Shown piece by piece: positions 46,221-55,142 of a stretch of DNA of 64,000 nucleotides (position 1 is its first letter; every line of letters begins with the position of its first letter). This DNA is from Verrucomicrobium sp. GAS474. GTDB lineage: Bacteria > Verrucomicrobiota > Verrucomicrobiia > Methylacidiphilales > GAS474. The DNA lies in contig NZ_LT629781.1 in NCBI RefSeq assembly GCF_900105685.1, positions 2,790,001-2,854,000 of the forward strand. Direction: 5' to 3'. Below the pieces are notes generated by a model. It had not been told where the DNA came from. It saw only the letters and a program-made list of their open reading frames with translations, and did no database searches. Position numbers and translations under genes: made by a program.

Positions 46221-46246
46221 GGGGGCTGTGGTAGGTTGACGCCACC

Positions 46247-47770
46247 TTGAAGATCCTCACGAACGAAGAAGTCCGAGCAATCGAGAACCGGATCATCGCC
46301 TCCGGAACCTCCGCCGACACCCTGATGGAACGGGCGGCGGAGGGCATCGTCGCGGCGCTCGCTCGGGAATTTCCCGCCGCCCGGGACGTCCTTTGCCTGA
46401 TCGGGAAGGGGAACAACGGCGGGGACGGCCTCGCCGTCGCCCGCCGCCTGGCCGAAGCGGGCTGGCGCGTCGCCGTCGGCCTGGCCTTCGAGCCCGCCGC
46501 CGCCACCCCCCTCTGTGCCGCGAAGTTGACATGGTTGCGGACGGCTTTTCCCGCCGTTCCCGTTTTTTCCCTGACCGAGCCTTCTCGACAACCGATCCCG
46601 TGGCCCGGAGCGCAGGGCCTCGTGATCGACGCCCTCCTCGGCATCGGGGCGAGGGGAGGCCTCTCGCCGGTCCTCGGGGAGATCGTCTCTCTCGTGAACC
46701 GGGAACGGAACGGACGTTTCTTCCGGGTCGCGGCCATCGACGGGCCGACCGGGGCGCATCGCCTGGCGGAGAAGGAGGAGGCCCTGATCGCCGACGTGAC
46801 GCTGACGCTCGGCTTCGGCAAGGAGCCGCTCTTCGCCGAGGCCGCCGCCAATGCGGTGGGACGGATCATCGCCGTTCCGATCTTTGAAGGGCAGGAAGAG
46901 GAAGAGAGGGCGGCATCGGATCGGGCCGAGGCCTTGACGCCCCCGCTCCTCCTCCCGCTGGTGCCGCGCCGCGCCGCCCGGTCCCATAAGGGGACCTATG
47001 GCCGCATCCTGATCGTCGGCGGATCGCGCGGAATGACCGGCGCGCCTGTTCTCTCCTCCCTGGGTGCGCTCCGCTCCGGCGCGGGGCTCCTTCATATCGC
47101 GACGCGGAAGGAGGCCCTTGCGACGGTCTCCCTTCGGGCACCGCTCGAAGCGATGGTCGTGGCGGCGGGCGACGGGGCCGATTTCACGGGGCTGCTGGGA
47201 AGGATGTCGGTCCTCGTCGTGGGGCCGGGCCTCGGAACCGATTATGACGCCTCGGAACTGCTCCGCCGTATTTTGGCCGAGACGACGGTGCCGCTGGTCC
47301 TCGATGCCGATGCCCTGACGCTCGCGGCGCAGGACCGGACCCTCCTCGACGCCTGCCGGGGCCGGGCGATCCTGACCCCCCACCCGGGCGAGATGGAGCG
47401 GCTCCTCGGTCGCCCCTGCGCCGAGGCGGAGCGGGAAGCGGTGGCGGTCGGTTTTGCCGAGGAGCACGGCGTCGTCCTCGTCCTGAAGGGAGTCCGCACC
47501 GTGGTGGCGGCCCCCGGTGCTCCGGCGCGGCTCAACACGACGGGCAATCCCGGGCTGGCGGCGGGGGGGAGCGGCGATCTCCTCGCCGGGATGATCGCGG
47601 CGCAGGCGGGCCGGGGGCTGGCGTTGCGGGAGGCGGCCTCGCTGGCCGTCTGGCTCCATGGCCGGGCCGCCGATCTGGCCGTACGGTCGCGCGGGGCCGA
47701 GGAAGGACTCGGCGCGGTCGAAGTGGCGGAGTGGATCGCCCCCGCGCTGGCCGACCTGCGCGGCGCGTAG
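46247..47770 (+). CDS. nnr: Bifunctional NAD(P)HX epimerase / ADP-dependent dehydratase
   Basis: Metabolite repair of hydrated NADH and NADPH. The 507-residue fusion has the epimerase (YjeF-N) at ~1–215 with IGKGNNGGDGLAVARRLAEA and AIDGPTGAH, then the dehydratase (YjeF-C) at ~235–505 with HKGTYGRILIVGGSRGMTGA, ILTPHPGEMERLL and NPGLAAGGSGDLLAGMI. Start codon is TTG at 46247, 26 bases after pckG. The epimerase active-site region reads IDGPTG where many have DIPSG, so epimerase activity is less certain. Confidence 0.93.
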   Translation: MKILTNEEVRAIENRIIASGTSADTLMERAAEGIVAALAREFPAARDVLCLIGKGNNGGDGLAVARRLAEAGWRVAVGLAFEPAAATPLCAAKLTWLRTAFPAVPVFSLTEPSRQPIPWPGAQGLVIDALLGIGARGGLSPVLGEIVSLVNRERNGRFFRVAAIDGPTGAHRLAEKEEALIADVTLTLGFGKEPLFAEAAANAVGRIIAVPIFEGQEEEERAASDRAEALTPPLLLPLVPRRAARSHKGTYGRILIVGGSRGMTGAPVLSSLGALRSGAGLLHIATRKEALATVSLRAPLEAMVVAAGDGADFTGLLGRMSVLVVGPGLGTDYDASELLRRILAETTVPLVLDADALTLAAQDRTLLDACRGRAILTPHPGEMERLLGRPCAEAEREAVAVGFAEEHGVVLVLKGVRTVVAAPGAPARLNTTGNPGLAAGGSGDLLAGMIAAQAGRGLALREAASLAVWLHGRAADLAVRSRGAEEGLGAVEVAEWIAPALADLRGA

Positions 47771-47795: not shown

Positions 47796-48767
47796 TTAGG
47801 GCTCGAGCGTGAACGTATCGCCGAGGTGGGCCTTGAGCAGGCGCGCCGCCGATCCCTTGTTCACGATGATGAGGAGCTTGCCTTCGGGGGAGTAAATCGC
47901 GGCGTAACGGCCGATGGGGACTTCGTTCGGCGTGGCGACGAGGGGGGCATGGATCCGTTCCTTCCCGTAGAGGATCCGGAGCAGGGTTCCCTCCTTCAGC
48001 CATGTGGCGACGCCCTTCGGGATGTTCGTCACGATATTGCCCTCGGAATCGATGAAGAGGATTTCCCCGCTCACGGTCTGGCCGGCGGTGTGGGGGGTGT
48101 TGAAGGGGAGGAGATCGGGGGTCTTGACGGGGGTGCCGTAATCGTTGGTCTGCTTCTTCGGCGGCAGGGCGAGGGCGGGGGAGAGGGCGGCGAGGAGCGC
48201 GGCGAGGGCGTCGGGATCGTTCATGATGACGCGGGCCGGGGGGACCTCCCCTTCCTTGGTTTTCAGCGAACCGGCGGGGTAGTACTCCGGCTTGTCGAGG
48301 ATCCAGACCTTGTCGATGTTTTCCCGGAGGAGGAGGAGGCTGACGATGGAGCCGCTCTCGGCCAGGTAGTATTTCTTCGCCTTGCTGCGGACGAGGAGGA
48401 GGGGGTGGTCCTTGCCGCCCTGGGTGGCGACGGCGATGACGAGGAGGTTCCCTTCGGCGATCCGGGCGGTGGCCTGGTCGACGAGGTAGGCCGAAAGGCG
48501 GTCGTCGGGAAGGGAGGGAAGGTCGAGGTCGTCGATCAGGTCGCTGGCGGGGAGGTTGGGGGAGGCGGTGGCCAGGGCGTCCTGGAGGGCCTTGGCATAG
48601 GCGCCGTGCTTGTCGGTCACGATGCCGACGGGGGCATACTTCGATTTCTTCGAGCAGCCCGTCCCGAGCAGGAGGGGGAGGGCCAGGAGGAGGGCGCAAG
48701 CCAGCCGGAGCAGCGAAACGCCCCGCGCCGCCTGATCCGATACCGATACCCTTGCCAATGGATGCAC
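47796..48767 (-). CDS. Lipoprotein related to SAM hydroxide adenosyltransferases (DUF62), catalytic residues lost
   Basis: A 323-residue lipoprotein: a leader of ~35 residues with lipobox LLLGTGC. The C-terminal ~85 residues resemble the DUF62 beta-barrel: ILFIDSEGNIVTNIPKG and LLIIVNKGSAARLLKAHLGD. The N-terminal half follows the same topology, but the family TDFG becomes TDKH, the Asp/Arg segment IDPGVG..RR becomes VATQGGKDHP, and the FHGRD histidine region is not recognisable. Known family members are cytosolic enzymes, so this looks like a surface binding protein. GTG start at 48767. Convergent with the NAD(P)HX repair gene. Confidence 0.68.
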   Translation of the reverse strand: MHPLARVSVSDQAARGVSLLRLACALLLALPLLLGTGCSKKSKYAPVGIVTDKHGAYAKALQDALATASPNLPASDLIDDLDLPSLPDDRLSAYLVDQATARIAEGNLLVIAVATQGGKDHPLLLVRSKAKKYYLAESGSIVSLLLLRENIDKVWILDKPEYYPAGSLKTKEGEVPPARVIMNDPDALAALLAALSPALALPPKKQTNDYGTPVKTPDLLPFNTPHTAGQTVSGEILFIDSEGNIVTNIPKGVATWLKEGTLLRILYGKERIHAPLVATPNEVPIGRYAAIYSPEGKLLIIVNKGSAARLLKAHLGDTFTLEP

Positions 48768-48834
48768 CTTTTCTAGTTAGCCCAAGAGATCGATTTGGCA
48801 ACCCCCCTTTCCGCAGGGGGCTCCGGGGCGAAGC

Positions 48835-49491
48835 TCAGGAGAGGTCGACCTCGTCGAGGAATTCCTCCATGAAGCGGCGGAGCCGGTCCTGCCGGGTCGC
48901 GGCCATCCGGGCTCCGGCGGAGGTCTGGAAGCCGGAGGCGAGCTTCAGGAGCTTTTCCTCGAAGTGGTCGAGGGCGAAGCGGCGGTCGTCCCGGGGGCGA
49001 TGCCGGGCGCGGGGATCGGCGGGATCGTAGAGGGCGCTGGCCATCCGCCCGGCGGTGTAAAAGCAGCGGGCGACGCCGATCATCCCGATGGCGTCGAGGC
49101 GGTCGGCATCCTGGAGGATCTTCGCCTCGAGCGTCCGGGGCGCGAGGGCCGCCGTGAAGCTGTGCGCCTCGACGGCGTGCCGTACGGCCTCGACCCGCTC
49201 GGCAGGCCAACCGAGGGAGCCCAGGACCGCGGCGGCCCGCTCCGCCGCGAGGCGCGAGGCTTGGGAGCGGAGGGGGGAGCTTTTCTCGACCGTCACGCAA
49301 TCGTGGAGGAGCGTCGCCGCCGCCAGCACCTCGGCCTCGCCTCCTTCCTCGGCGTGGATGAGGAAGGCGTTTTTCCAGACCCGGACGAGATGGGCGAGGT
49401 CGTGCGCCCCGTCGCCCGCCCCGTCGATATGGGGGAGGAGGGCGGCCGCCAGGGCTTCGTGGGGCGCGAAGGAGGAAGTGGCGAGACTCAT
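48835..49491 (-). CDS. HD-domain metal-dependent phosphohydrolase
   Basis: A 218-residue protein with the HD pattern: HDLAHLVRVWKNA (first His), ATLLHDCVTV (HD pair) and LQDADRLDAIGMIGVARC (distal Asp), with a YedJ-like layout. These proteins hydrolyse phosphate esters or nucleotides; the substrate here is unknown. The start at 49491 overlaps the preceding kinase stop by 4 bases (ATGA), so it is translated together with a signalling operon. Upstream in-frame sequence is a kinase shadow. Confidence 0.86.
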   Translation of the reverse strand: MSLATSSFAPHEALAAALLPHIDGAGDGAHDLAHLVRVWKNAFLIHAEEGGEAEVLAAATLLHDCVTVEKSSPLRSQASRLAAERAAAVLGSLGWPAERVEAVRHAVEAHSFTAALAPRTLEAKILQDADRLDAIGMIGVARCFYTAGRMASALYDPADPRARHRPRDDRRFALDHFEEKLLKLASGFQTSAGARMAATRQDRLRRFMEEFLDEVDLS

Positions 49492-50690
49492 TTCGGTAGG
49501 GAGAAGGAGAAGACGCTGCCCTCGTCTTCCTTCCCCTCGGCCCACGTCTTCCCGCCGTGGTTCTCGACGATGGCGCGGACGGTGGCCAGGCCGACGCCGT
49601 TGCCCTCGAACTGGTCGTCGGAGTGGAGCCGCTGGAAGACGCCGAAGAGCTGGTTGACGTACTTCATGTCGAAGCCCGCCCCGTTGTCCCTGACGAAGAA
49701 GATCCGGTCGTTGCCGTTCTGGCTCTCGTTCCAGCCGACCTCGATCTTCGCGACGGGCCGGAGGCCGGTGTATTTCACGGCGTTCGAGAGGAGGTTGCTG
49801 AAGACCTGGCGGAGGAGGGTGGGATCGCCCTTCACCTCGGGGAGCTTCGCGATGGTCCACTCGATCCGCCGGTCCTCGGTGCGGAGGTCTTCCCGGACGA
49901 TGTCGGCGATGAGGACATCGAGGTCGATCGGCTCCTCGCTCATCGCGACGTGGCCGGAGCGGGCGTAGTTCAGCATCGAGTGGATCAGCTCCCGCATCCG
50001 GATCGCCGATTTCTTCACTTTCTCGAGGTAATCCTGGAGCTCCTCGCTGAGCTGGGGTTTATACCGCTCGACGAGGCCGATGTAGCCGGTGATGTGGGAG
50101 AGGGGCGCGCGGAGGTCGTGGGAGACGGAGTAGCTGAACGACTCGAGGCTCGAGTTGGCGACCCGGAGCTCCCGGTTCTTCTTCTCCAGCTCGAGGTTCA
50201 GCTTGCTGACCTTCGCGGCGACGCGGATCTTGTCGTCGACCTCGGCCTCCAGCTGGTGACGGATGCGGGCGAGTTCGATGAAGACCTCGACCTTGGCGCG
50301 GAGGATGCCGGTGATGACCGGCTTGATGATGTAGTCGACGGCGCCGCTCGAATAGCCCTTGAACATCATCTCCTCGGAGACGAAGGAACCGGTGACGAAG
50401 ATGATCGGCGTGTGGCGGGAACGGGGGCGCTGGCGGATCAGCTCCGCCGTCTCGAAGCCGTCGATGCCCGGCATGTGGCCGTCGAGGAGGACGACGGCGT
50501 AGTCGTCCCGCAGGAGGCGGGAGAGGGCCTCCTCGCCCGAGTTCGCCTTGACGAGTTCCTGACCCAGGCACTCCAGCGCGGCTTCCATGGAGAGGAGGTT
50601 GGAGGGCTCGTCGTCGACCAGGAGAATCTTGACCTTCGATGTAGTGCTGGTGCTGGTACTCATGGGAATGGGTTGGGTCTTAGTCGGCAT
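49488..50690 (-). CDS. Receiver–histidine kinase (REC-HisKA-HATPase)
   Basis: A 400-residue soluble signalling protein. The N-terminal receiver (~20–135) has LLVDDEPSN, phospho-acceptor Asp in VVLLDGHMPGIDG and Lys in YIIKP. A coiled-coil linker leads to HisKA with SYSVSHDLRAPLSHITGY and an ATPase domain with FSNLLSNAVKYT, RDNGAGFDM and GNGVGLATVRAIV. No membrane segment. It is probably phosphorylated by the upstream hybrid kinase. The start could be 50690 (overlapping cheR by 11 bases) or 50663 (MSTSTSTTSKVKILL); neither has a clear ribosome site. Confidence 0.92.
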   Translation of the reverse strand: MPTKTQPIPMSTSTSTTSKVKILLVDDEPSNLLSMEAALECLGQELVKANSGEEALSRLLRDDYAVVLLDGHMPGIDGFETAELIRQRPRSRHTPIIFVTGSFVSEEMMFKGYSSGAVDYIIKPVITGILRAKVEVFIELARIRHQLEAEVDDKIRVAAKVSKLNLELEKKNRELRVANSSLESFSYSVSHDLRAPLSHITGYIGLVERYKPQLSEELQDYLEKVKKSAIRMRELIHSMLNYARSGHVAMSEEPIDLDVLIADIVREDLRTEDRRIEWTIAKLPEVKGDPTLLRQVFSNLLSNAVKYTGLRPVAKIEVGWNESQNGNDRIFFVRDNGAGFDMKYVNQLFGVFQRLHSDDQFEGNGVGLATVRAIVENHGGKTWAEGKEDEGSVFSFSLPK

Positions 50691-51576
50691 GGATTTTGCG
50701 GTAGATGCGTTTCTTCTCGGCCACTTCCTCGTAGCGGTCCTGGTAGGAGGAGAGGTAGAGGCTCTCCCCGCTGCCGAGGGCGAAGAAGCCCCGGGGGATG
50801 AGGCTCTTCCAGATCAGGTCCCGGACGCGGGACTGAAGGTCGCGGTTGAAATAGATGAGGACGTTGCGGCAGAAGACGACGTGGAACTCGTTGAAGGAGC
50901 CGTCGCAGGCGAGGTTGTGGTGGGCGAAGACGATCCGCTCCGCAAGATGGGAGCGCATCATCGCGTTCTCGCCGTCGTGGACGTAGTAGTCGGAGAACTC
51001 GCGGGTGCCTCCGGCCGCCTTGTAGTTCTTGGAATACTCGGCGACGAGGGGGAAGGGGAAGACGCCCGACTGGGCCCGGGCGAGATTGCCCTCGTTGAAG
51101 TCGGTGGCGTAGATCCGGCAGCGGGAATAGAGGTCCTCCTCGTGGAGGAGGATCGCCAGGGAATAGGCCTCCTCGCCGGTCGAGCATCCGGCGACCCAGA
51201 TGCGGATGAAGGGATAGGTCTGGAGCCAGGGAATGATCTCGGAGCGGACGGCCCGGTAGAAGGCGGCGTCTCGGAAGAGGGAAGTGGTGCGGATGGTCAG
51301 GATCTCGACGAGCTGCATCATGCCGTCGGCATCGCCGAGGACGCGCGCCTCCAGCTGGGCCACGTTCTCCAGCTTGAAATCGGCCAGGGCCCGCGCGACA
51401 CGGCGTTCGAGGTAGCCTTCCGAGTAATGGCGGAAATCAAAGCCATACTGGTCGAAGACCTTCTCGAAGAGCCGGGGAACCGCCGCGACGAAGGAGGGAT
51501 CGGCGGAGAGGAGGGAGATCCCGTCCTCGTCCTCTCCGGCGAAGGCTGCGGCGCGGGCGGAATCGTCGGTCATCAT
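50680..51576 (-). CDS. cheR: CheR-type protein-glutamate methyltransferase
   Basis: SAM-dependent methyltransferase of 298 residues. The helical N-domain (~25–100) includes YLERRVARALADF; the SAM domain has IRIWVAGCSTGEEAYSLAI, IYATDFNEGNLARAQSG and VVFCRNVLIYFN. Normal substrates are chemoreceptor glutamates, but no receptor, cheA, cheW or cheB is in the window. Start ATG 51576 overlaps the hybrid kinase stop (ATGA). It may methylate the hybrid kinase or another partner. Confidence 0.93.
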   Translation of the reverse strand: MMTDDSARAAAFAGEDEDGISLLSADPSFVAAVPRLFEKVFDQYGFDFRHYSEGYLERRVARALADFKLENVAQLEARVLGDADGMMQLVEILTIRTTSLFRDAAFYRAVRSEIIPWLQTYPFIRIWVAGCSTGEEAYSLAILLHEEDLYSRCRIYATDFNEGNLARAQSGVFPFPLVAEYSKNYKAAGGTREFSDYYVHDGENAMMRSHLAERIVFAHHNLACDGSFNEFHVVFCRNVLIYFNRDLQSRVRDLIWKSLIPRGFFALGSGESLYLSSYQDRYEEVAEKKRIYRKIHAD

Positions 51577-54500
51577 TTATAGAGCCAGACGCGGAGGAGC
51601 GAGCGGAGCTGCTCCATGTCGACGGGTTTGGTGACGTAATCGGACGCTCCCGCGTCGAGGCACTTCTCGCGGTCCCCCTTCATCGCCTTCGCCGTGATGG
51701 CGAGGATCGGCAGGTCGTGGTACTTCGGGTTCGCCCGGATCCGGCGCATCGCCTCGAATCCGTCCATCTCGGGCATCATGATGTCCATCAGGACGGCCCG
51801 GATCTCGGGATGCTTCTCGACCATCTCGATCCCCTCGCGGCCGTTGTTCGCGTAGAGCACCTGCATCCGGTATTGTTCCAAACCCGCGGTGATGGAGAAG
51901 ATGTTCCGGGGGTCGTCGTCGACGATGAGGACAGCCTGCTCCGCGAGGATCGAGTCTTCCTGCCGTGCCAGCTCGATCGCCTGCCGCTTCCGCTCGGGGA
52001 GCTTGCTCTGGACGCGGTGGAGGAAGAGCGCCGTCTCGTCGAGCAGCCGCTCGGGGGACTTCACGTTCTTGATGATGATCGCCTCGCTGAACTGCTTCAG
52101 GTCCCGCTCCTCGGCCTCGGTCAGGCTCCGGCCGGTGTAGATGATGATCGGCAGGTTCTCGCCGCCCGGATGGTCCTTGATCCGCCGGATGAGGTCGAGG
52201 CCCCCGATGTCGGGCAGGCCGAGGTCGAGGATGATGCAGTCGTAATGCTTTTCCTCGATGGCGGCGAGGGCGGCGAGGCCGGTTCCCACCGCCGTCGTGA
52301 CGACGTCGCCGTTGCCGATCAGCTCGATGAGGCTCTTCCGCTGGCGCTCGTCGTCCTCGACGATGAGGAGGTTCTTCACGGAGCGGGCGGCGAATTCCTT
52401 CACCTGGCCCAGCATCCCGTCGATCTGTTCCTTCGTGACCGGCTTCTTCAGGTAGGAGACGGCGCCGAGCTTCAGGCCGCGCTCCCGTTCCTCCCGGACG
52501 CTCATGATGTGGACGGGGATGTGACGGGTGGCGGCGGAATGCTTCAGCTGGTCGAGGACGACCCAGCCCTCGCGGTCGGGCAGGCCGAGGTCGAGGGTGA
52601 TCGCGGCGGGCTTGAACCGCTCGGCGAGGAGCGGAACCGAACCGGCCTGGCGGGTGATGACGACCTTGAAGCCCTTCCCGTGGGCGAAATCGGCCATCAG
52701 CCCGGCGAAGTTGGCGTCGTCCTCGACGACGAGGAGGACGAGGTCCTCGGGAGAGATGTTCGCCCGGTCGTCCTCGACGCCGCCGCTCTCGCTGGCGAGT
52801 TCCTGGGGCTGGGCCGAAGCCGCCGGGGCATGGCCGTGGCCGATCCTCGGCTTCGGCTCCCAGGCCGAGGCGGGACGCTGGGGGGAGGGGGCCGCCGCGT
52901 CGGAGGCGGCGGCGAGGGTCGCGGGGAGAGTGAGGATGAAGGTGCTCCCCTGACCGAGGGTGCTGGAGACCCGGAGGGAGCCACCGAGGAGGCGGGCGAT
53001 CTCCCGGCTGATCGAGAGGCCGAGGCCGGTGCCGCCGTAGCGGCGGGCGGTCCCCGATTCGGCCTGCTGGAAGGCCTCGAAGATGATCTGCTGCTTTTCC
53101 TCGGAGATGCCGATGCCGCTGTCCTTCACGGAGAAGGCGATCTCGCCGTTCGGGGCGATCCCCACCTTCAGGTGGACCACGCCCTGCTCGGTGAACTTGA
53201 AGGCGTTCGAGAGGAGGTTCTTCACGACCTGATGGACGCGCCGGACGTCGGTGCGGAGGGAATCGGGGAGGTTCGGGTCGAGATCGATCGTGAAGTCGAG
53301 CTTCTTCGCCTCGGCCATCGGGCGGAAGGCCCGCTCGATCGAATGGGCGAGGTCGACGTAGACGAGGTCGCCGATCTCGATGCCGACGGTCCCCGACTCG
53401 ATCTTGGCGAGGTCGAGGATGTCGTTGATGAGCTGGAGGAGGTCGTTCCCGGCCCCGCGGATCGTCTCGGCGTATTGGATCTGCTTCTCGCTGAGGTTCC
53501 GCTCGCTGTTCTCGACAAGGATGTTCGAGAGGATGAGGAGGCTGTTCAGCGGCGTGCGGAGCTCGTGCGACATGTTCGCGAGGAACTCCGACTTGTACTT
53601 CGAGGTCTGGGCGAGCTGGCCCGCCTTTTCCTCGAGCGCCTGCTGGGCCTCCTCGATCTCGCGGTTCTTCCGCTCCATCTCGACCCGCTGCTCGTCGAGG
53701 CGGCGGGTCCGCTCCTCGAGCTCGGTGTTCGCCTGCCCCAGTTCCTCGTTCGTCTGCTGGAGCTCCTCGTTGGTCTGGCGGAGTTCCTCCTGCTGGGTCT
53801 GGAGGTTGGAAGAGAGGATCTCGGCCTGGGTGAGGAGCTCCTCGGTGCGCAGATTCGCCTCGATGGCGCTGAGGACGAGGCCGAAGCCGTTGAGGAGCTG
53901 GACGAGGAAGTTTTTCTGGAGTTCGGTCAGCTCCCGGAAGAAGGCGAGCTCGAGAACCCCCTTGGCCTTATCCTCGAAGAGGATGGGAAGGAGGACGAGG
54001 GAGCGGGGCAAGGCCTCCCCGAGGGTCGAGCCGATCGTGAAGTAATCGCGCGGGACGTCGTCGATGAAGAAGGGCTTTTTCTCGAGGAAACATTGCCCCA
54101 GGAGGCCTTCGCCCGGGCGGATCGCCCGGCGCTCCTCGGGAACCGCGAAGCCGGCCTGCCAGCGGAGGGCGAACTGCGGCTTGCCGCCCGACGTTCCGGG
54201 AACCGATTGCGCCAGGTAGAGGGAGGCGCGGCGGGTGTCGAGGATCGCGGCGAGCTGGGAGACGAGGGTCTGGCAGACTTCCTGGAGGCTCCTCTTCCCC
54301 TGGAAGAGGGAATTGAAATGGGCGAGGTTGCCCTTCAGCCATTCCTGTTTCGCCAATTGATCCTGGCGCTGCTCGACCTGGTCGGCCATCTGGTTGAAGA
54401 CGGTCGCCAATTGGCCGATCTCGTCCCGGGCGATGACGTCGGCCCGTTTGCTGTAATCGCCCGCGCCGATCTTCGTCGCCGCGTTGGTGAGGGTCCGCAG

Positions 54501-55142
54501 GGAGCTGCTGATCCCGCGCACGATGATCCAGCTGGCCAGCGCCACGATGAGGAAGGCGGCGAGGGTGCCCCAGGTGATCGTGAGCCCGGTCAGGCTCTGG
54601 GCCGACGTGGCCCGTTCCTTGCGGTCGGCGAGCAGCCGCGATTCCTGGGCCTCCATCTTCTGGATGGTGAGGCGGCAGAACTCCATGTCCTGCTGGCCCT
54701 TCGCGAAGAGGGCGACCTCGTCGAGGCCGATCTTTCCCTTGGCCTGGAAAATATGGAGGACCCGCTGGAGGAGCTCCATCCGCTCGGCAAGGACCGGTTC
54801 CAGGTCATCGAGGTTGGCCTGCTGGGAGGCGTTATCCTTCGTGAGGGTGCGGATCTGCTGGAGGTCGTCGAGGACGAAGGGAGAGAGTTCGTCGAACCGG
54901 TTGAGGAGGCCCGGAAGCCGGGTGAGAAGGAAGCCGCGCTGGCTGCTCTCCGCCTCGGTGAGGTGCGCGGAGAGGCTCTCCATCTTCTGGAGGACGAGGG
55001 CGGTATGCTCGACCCACTCCGAATCGGAGTTCAGCTGCTTGAGATTATGAAAGGAGACGACGCCGATGAGGAGCAGGGAAACCAGCACCAAACCGTAGCC
55101 GATACTGATTTTGACGCCGATAGAGAGTTTCATCACTGCCAT
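51573..55142 (-). CDS. Hybrid sensor kinase with CHASE3, HAMP, GAF, HisKA, ATPase and three receivers
   Basis: A 1189-residue membrane sensor. Helix 1 (~11–30), a CHASE3-like extracytoplasmic domain (~35–180), helix 2 (~188–209), HAMP (to ~262), GAF (~275–430), a long coiled coil with heptad repeats LRQTNEELQQTNEEL (~440–515), HisKA with phospho-His526 in MSHELRTPLNS, HATPase with GGTGLGLSISREIARLLGG, then three receivers whose Asp residues sit in ITLDLGLPD, IILDLGLPD and VLMDIMMPEMDG. Layout resembles kinases that integrate an external signal with several phosphorelay branches. It heads a four-gene overlapping operon. Confidence 0.94.
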   Translation of the reverse strand: MAVMKLSIGVKISIGYGLVLVSLLLIGVVSFHNLKQLNSDSEWVEHTALVLQKMESLSAHLTEAESSQRGFLLTRLPGLLNRFDELSPFVLDDLQQIRTLTKDNASQQANLDDLEPVLAERMELLQRVLHIFQAKGKIGLDEVALFAKGQQDMEFCRLTIQKMEAQESRLLADRKERATSAQSLTGLTITWGTLAAFLIVALASWIIVRGISSSLRTLTNAATKIGAGDYSKRADVIARDEIGQLATVFNQMADQVEQRQDQLAKQEWLKGNLAHFNSLFQGKRSLQEVCQTLVSQLAAILDTRRASLYLAQSVPGTSGGKPQFALRWQAGFAVPEERRAIRPGEGLLGQCFLEKKPFFIDDVPRDYFTIGSTLGEALPRSLVLLPILFEDKAKGVLELAFFRELTELQKNFLVQLLNGFGLVLSAIEANLRTEELLTQAEILSSNLQTQQEELRQTNEELQQTNEELGQANTELEERTRRLDEQRVEMERKNREIEEAQQALEEKAGQLAQTSKYKSEFLANMSHELRTPLNSLLILSNILVENSERNLSEKQIQYAETIRGAGNDLLQLINDILDLAKIESGTVGIEIGDLVYVDLAHSIERAFRPMAEAKKLDFTIDLDPNLPDSLRTDVRRVHQVVKNLLSNAFKFTEQGVVHLKVGIAPNGEIAFSVKDSGIGISEEKQQIIFEAFQQAESGTARRYGGTGLGLSISREIARLLGGSLRVSSTLGQGSTFILTLPATLAAASDAAAPSPQRPASAWEPKPRIGHGHAPAASAQPQELASESGGVEDDRANISPEDLVLLVVEDDANFAGLMADFAHGKGFKVVITRQAGSVPLLAERFKPAAITLDLGLPDREGWVVLDQLKHSAATRHIPVHIMSVREERERGLKLGAVSYLKKPVTKEQIDGMLGQVKEFAARSVKNLLIVEDDERQRKSLIELIGNGDVVTTAVGTGLAALAAIEEKHYDCIILDLGLPDIGGLDLIRRIKDHPGGENLPIIIYTGRSLTEAEERDLKQFSEAIIIKNVKSPERLLDETALFLHRVQSKLPERKRQAIELARQEDSILAEQAVLIVDDDPRNIFSITAGLEQYRMQVLYANNGREGIEMVEKHPEIRAVLMDIMMPEMDGFEAMRRIRANPKYHDLPILAITAKAMKGDREKCLDAGASDYVTKPVDMEQLRSLLRVWLYK

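Follow-up and report, generated by a model that had tools for sequence, protein, structure and literature searches.

A probably exported DUF62-fold protein and its neighbours

The window, a stretch of 64,000 nucleotides from Verrucomicrobium sp. GAS474 (contig NZ_LT629781.1, positions 2,790,001 to 2,854,000), carries on its minus strand an open reading frame at 47796..48767, which would encode 323 amino acids if read from GTG. The first-pass annotation had begun the gene at this GTG (48767), apparently nine bases too far upstream; the more likely start is the TTG at 48758, with AAGGTG seen by eye 6 nt upstream of it, and the frame closes at 47796 (Table 1). The signal sequence ends in LLLGTGC and its Cys is residue 35 counted from the TTG. 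Under the rule that we applied, a Sec-type signal followed by a lipobox-type Cys within 15-35 residues, the protein read from this start is classed as a lipoprotein, so that the export signal proposed earlier is borne out; both lgt and lspA were found in the same genome. The lipobox would provide a membrane anchor without specifying the side of the membrane, so that the surface anchoring stated in the first-pass annotation says more than the sequence does and the location of the protein is a prediction. The genome contains a single DUF62 gene, in that the SAM_HAT_C model picks out this frame alone and SAM_HAT_N picks out none. A promoter scan found nothing.

Table 1. Position of the lipoprotein gene, its parts and its neighbours in the window
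Feature	Position	Strand	Basis and remarks
NAD(P)HX epimerase/dehydratase gene	46235..47767	+	YjeF_N + Carb_kinase; convergent; also a neighbour in G001
Exported DUF62-fold lipoprotein CDS	47796..48758	-	TTG start preferred; single copy in genome
SAM_HAT_C beta-barrel, mature residues ~188-286	47799..48095	-	E 8.4e-11; D..GN positions kept, (F/Y)GN aromatic replaced by Glu
Degenerate SAM_HAT_N domain, mature residues ~9-170	48147..48632	-	11.9 bits alone; 28.5 in G002 and 53.4 in G001; modelled fold
Glu135, column of catalytic His127	48252..48254	-	Alignments; FHGRD motif lost
His84, column of catalytic Arg75	48405..48407	-	Alignments
Ala77 (mature numbering), column of catalytic Asp68 (PH0463 numbering)	48426..48428	-	Alignments
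Lipobox end GTG-C, Ser after Cys	48654..48665 (Cys codon 48654-48656)	-	Sequence; lgt + lspA in genome
Predicted type II (lipoprotein) signal peptide, 34 aa	48657..48758	-	Mean hydropathy of hydrophobic segment 2.59; passes lipobox rule
Candidate ribosome-binding site AAGGTG	48765..48770	-	6 nt before TTG; by eye and start-codon listing
HD-domain protein gene	48835..49491	-	PF01966, E 1.7e-11; 76 nt before TTG; possibly co-transcribed

Genomes of the window's order are numbered with a G, the window's own being G000, and G001 and G002 belong to the same genus. The HD-domain gene adjoins the lipoprotein gene in G002 too and was not found in G001. A conserved operon was considered and rejected, as the neighbours in the window recur in G001 and G002 only. 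On the same strand, 49488-55142 holds in a row what appear by eye to be a response-regulator/histidine kinase, a CheR-like methyltransferase and a large hybrid sensor kinase. In four of 11 neighbourhoods of exported DUF62 genes elsewhere (L195, L198, L199 and L204), a long ORF that resembles a TypA/BipA GTPase by eye adjoins the gene; it is not in the window, and this adjacency gave no functional lead.

Domain identity, predicted fold and active site

SAM_HAT_C matched the window protein with 42.5 bits (cut-off 25.5), and SAM_HAT_N scored below its cut-off of 26.3 bits. The SAM_HAT_N model gave 178.9 bits in G014 and 90.1 in G006, and since the two congeners still score above the cut-off (Table 1), homology of the N-domain holds even though the model misses it in the window protein. 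Against the NCBIfam (R)-SAM hydrolase equivalog the window protein reached 31.5 bits, far from the cut-off of 350, which two triad-intact orthologues also miss (175-187 bits); the NCBIfam fluorinase model TIGR04507 did not match it. Searching PDB sequences with phmmer yielded matches to 2zbu and 7ccg and, weakly, to PH0463. A scan of a viral collection returned 18 pattern matches, none of them a relative.

We modelled the protein with AlphaFold2 from a 52-row alignment of the window protein and 51 relatives (mean pLDDT 87.1, pTM 0.81); the fold could be imposed by this input, since the relatives are nearly all triad-intact, and prediction from the single sequence, run as a control, gave an uninformative pLDDT of 32.8. 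All 40 Foldseek matches at E<=0.001 were DUF62, SalL, chlorinase or fluorinase chains. In VIA-align comparisons the model gave Z 25.8 with 2zbu (rmsd 3.3, 257 aligned), 22.5 with SalL, 22.1 with PH0463 (1wu8), 22.8 and 21.9 with ClA1 and ClA2, and 21.4 with FlA; the next fold reached only 6.1. The DUF62 two-domain fold is thus predicted to span the whole mature chain in a model built on the family alignment. The earlier assignment to this fold stands: the SAM_HAT_C match, the N-domain traced through congeners and the likeness of the model over both domains all point to it, and structure comparison with PH0463 and SalL returned the same fold, not an unrelated one. The observation is not due to chance, given homologous open frames in 49 of the 62 genomes of the order and a fold match over the full length.

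In order to fix the catalytic columns, we aligned a triad-intact orthologue with PH0463, whereby its Asp112, Arg119 and His171 correspond to residues 68, 75 and 127, which we take to be the published catalytic triad. At these columns the window protein reads A-H-E in place of Asp-Arg-His. The surrounding motifs have changed as well: TDFG has become TDKHG, in which the TD aspartate persists, the PNNG loop has become AESG, and in place of FHGRD stands KEG with an unrelated insertion after it. The D..GN motif of the C-domain retains its Asp and Asn, and Glu occupies the place of the (F/Y)GN aromatic, presumably the residue that lines the adenine site. The congener G001 has the same Glu at the aromatic site, Thr for the motif Asn, and a deletion of the FHGRD stretch. 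The loss of the catalytic triad, noted earlier from the letters of the sequence, is therefore upheld; a conserved triad hidden by misalignment was not what the orthologue- and PH0463-anchored columns revealed.

The closest known systems are the DUF62/(R)-SAM hydrolases (PH0463, MJ1651, StDUF62 and Thermotoga maritima 2zbu), which share the two-domain fold and, via the congeners, sequence homology in both domains. Unlike them, the window protein has A-H-E rather than D-R-H, lacks the FHGRD and PNNG loops, carries Glu for the (F/Y)GN aromatic and is a predicted lipoprotein. A passage in PMC10491745 describes how the conserved His-Arg-Asp triad of DUF62 hydrolases activates water, and states that the halogenases FlA and SalL, which have the same fold, are also without it. 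Since halogenases of this fold lack the triad as well, triad loss alone is no proof of inactivity. SalL, ClA1/ClA2 and FlA were compared with the window protein by fold only, and the latter differs from them in having no (F/Y)GN aromatic, in its export signal and in the missing NCBIfam fluorinase match.

Export and triad loss among relatives

Of the 62 genomes of the order, the 49 with the gene normally have one copy each. We read 48 of these sequences, leaving out a fragment (G042); the N-terminus is cut in three (G043, G051 and G059), so that 45 are readable there, and G002 is cut at the C-terminus by a contig end. An export-like hydrophobic segment lies just before the domain in all 45, and a lipobox-type Cys follows the segment in 39, of which 25 pass the strict lipobox rule. 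Lipobox-bearing relatives thus exist in number, and the view of the family as cytosolic is not borne out, since nearly the whole order has lipoprotein or secreted forms and most of these are triad-intact. The six members without Cys all belong to genus g12 (L016, L017, L020, L048, L049 and L055). These six look like soluble, secreted and triad-intact proteins; L021 and L056, also of g12, keep the Cys.

Export extends beyond the order. Export-like N-termini are present in at least 13 of 34 rows from other Verrucomicrobiota, with a lipobox in L062 and plain secretion signals in rows of family f12, which we guess to be Opitutaceae-like; they also occur in five Acidobacteriota loci (L124, L136, L147, L150 and L152) and, by eye, in the Planctomycetota record L154. 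Members with both such an N-terminus and an intact triad are found in all three of these groups. Six sampled exported-looking rows (L079, L080, L081, L124, L150 and L154) form one branch (SH-aLRT 98). Export of the DUF62 fold is not peculiar to the window protein, and the narrower novelty is the loss of the active site within an already exported branch. The first-pass annotation had regarded export as a new use of the fold, which does not hold with exported forms across the order and in other phyla; a use unique to the window protein was rejected for the same order-wide export. Searches of the open-access literature turned up no paper on an exported or pseudoenzyme DUF62 protein, judged by titles and the openings of abstracts, and PF20257 was mentioned in no paper of the literature searched. 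In eight other Verrucomicrobiota genomes (L165-L172), a SAM_HAT_C barrel without SAM_HAT_N follows an alpha/beta-hydrolase-like domain in proteins with a secretion-type N-terminus. Two of these were examined with Pfam (SAM_HAT_C 2.1e-11 each; Hydrolase_4 2e-07 and 2.2e-05, the latter below the cut-off), and the other six were judged from profile match and sequence start alone.

D-R-H is kept in 39 of the 48 order sequences. The nine departures are AHE in the window protein, AGE in G002, AH-gap in G001, NHP in G006, DSQ in G029, DQH in G003, DRQ in G004 and G040, and DRY in G012; triad loss is hence complete in the window's genus (3/3 genomes) and partial elsewhere in the order. The alignment of sequences from outside the order had 114 rows, with the weak row L174 dropped; after removal of L085, L087, L089 and L091, which belong to the window's order (L086 may belong too), 108 of 110 rows read DRH and the other two have a gap. 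Of these 110, 76 came from a search biased towards intact proteins, in that the 80 named loci had been collected with two motif patterns, one of them TFHGRDIF. The remaining 34 phylum rows were collected without the patterns and comprise 33 with DRH and one with a gap.

On the tree, loss of two or more triad residues needs at least two changes and any departure at least five. We propose that losses of two or more residues arose in two or more events, with the support near G006 weak and the G029 branch long. L015 (G006, family f5) and L186 (G029, genus g14) encode exported proteins with NHP and DSQ that keep signal and Cys, and may be separate pseudoenzyme lineages. Like the window protein, they have lost two or more triad residues; unlike it, they have other replacements and an undeleted FHGRD-like stretch, and G006 still scores well with SAM_HAT_N. 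The exported triad-intact lipoproteins of the order (for example those of G014, G023 and G009) are direct orthologous relatives of the window protein, sharing export signal and domain order, but have intact TDFG, DPGVG..R and FHGRD motifs.

G000, G001 and G002 group together on the tree (SH-aLRT 99), on a long stem (0.59 + 1.02). The ORF is open in all three genomes, with signal and Cys kept and no internal stop (G002 being cut by the contig end), and its GC3 of 0.81-0.88 is that of coding sequence. We compared the N-domains by the Nei-Gojobori method, which gives rough values in such GC3-rich genes. Between G000 and G002, dN was 0.22 and dS 0.59, hence dN/dS 0.38 (0.376 in a second computation), as against 0.22, 0.22 and 0.41 for three of the genes next to it, compared within the genus. 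Comparisons with G001 gave 0.83 for G000 and 0.54 for G002, estimates that are poor at such divergence. Since six triad-intact pairs from other genera lie at 0.06-0.16, constraint is weakened: the dead N-domain is under weakened but real purifying selection, at least between G000 and G002. As export is order-wide and mostly accompanied by an intact triad, the lipid anchor most likely preceded the loss of catalysis.

A probable envelope pseudoenzyme

From the results presented above, we consider it probable that the window protein is an envelope lipoprotein pseudoenzyme derived from an exported DUF62 hydrolase, with a presumed retained role and presumed inactivity. The ancestor would have been an exported lipoprotein of the DUF62 (SAM hydroxide adenosyltransferase) fold, single-copy through the order. 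The window's genus would have retained the lipid anchor and the two-domain fold but lost the catalytic triad, the loop with FHGRD and the aromatic that contacts adenine. Cys35 would be lipidated, placing the protein in the envelope, where it would face the periplasm or the outside. It would no longer hydrolyse SAM and would now serve in binding or as a scaffold, probably as a trimer. As for the intact relatives, their exported protein most likely continues to split an adenosyl compound outside the cytosol. Against a pseudoenzyme we count the retained TD aspartate and C-domain D..GN, and the fact that no partner or conserved operon hints at a role.

These retained residues, together with the overall fold, might instead indicate a protein that is still an enzyme, its pocket refitted for other adenosyl or nucleoside chemistry as in fluorinase and SalL; a passage in PMC10491745 has FlA and SalL active without the triad. 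Yet the PNNG and FHGRD loops have gone as well, and so has the aromatic of the C-domain; G001 has in addition lost the FHGRD stretch and the motif Asn, and the triad replacements differ among the three congeners, which is unlike the look of a new active site. We regard such refitting as quite improbable. That same variation between species, with the long stem branch and a dN/dS above that of the six intact pairs, would fit gene decay, in which this genus can do without the exported hydrolase and the ORF, a pseudogene at a late stage, is still open by chance. A pseudogene nevertheless seems unlikely, given a frame, signal and Cys kept in three genomes with no internal stop, coding-like GC3, and a dN/dS well below 1 and inside the range of the three neighbouring genes.

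It might further be argued that the N-terminus is a transmembrane segment or a cleaved secretion signal and the Cys incidental, as position -3 is Gly instead of the classical Leu and the six g12 members without Cys look plainly secreted. The Cys, though, ends the hydrophobic stretch in 39 of the 45 readable orthologues, 25 of them by the strict rule, and the genome has lgt and lspA. PMC10260701, a study of a membrane-associated lipoprotein of Methylacidiphilum fumariolicum, reports [FLYT]GC motifs in a family of Methylacidiphilum lipoproteins, which also speaks for a genuine lipobox. A non-functional anchor is accordingly very doubtful in our judgement.

With a probable pseudoenzyme as the preferred reading of the window protein, a broader proposal is offered only tentatively: the exported DUF62 branch may act on an extracytoplasmic ligand, and in the window's genus, as well as in G006 and G029 with their other replacements, it may now serve without catalysis as a receptor or scaffold in the envelope, which would make it the first branch of pseudoenzymes in this fold. 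If this were true, the job of the branch would not be the clearing of cytosolic (R,S)-SAM. PMC12120602 questions whether (R,S)-SAM hydrolysis is what at least some DUF62 proteins are really for. An exported branch that runs through the order, its active site stripped in places, is hard to square with a role in cytosolic metabolite repair. With forms that look active and forms that look dead, one lipoprotein offers a natural comparison for the job of this fold outside the cell membrane.
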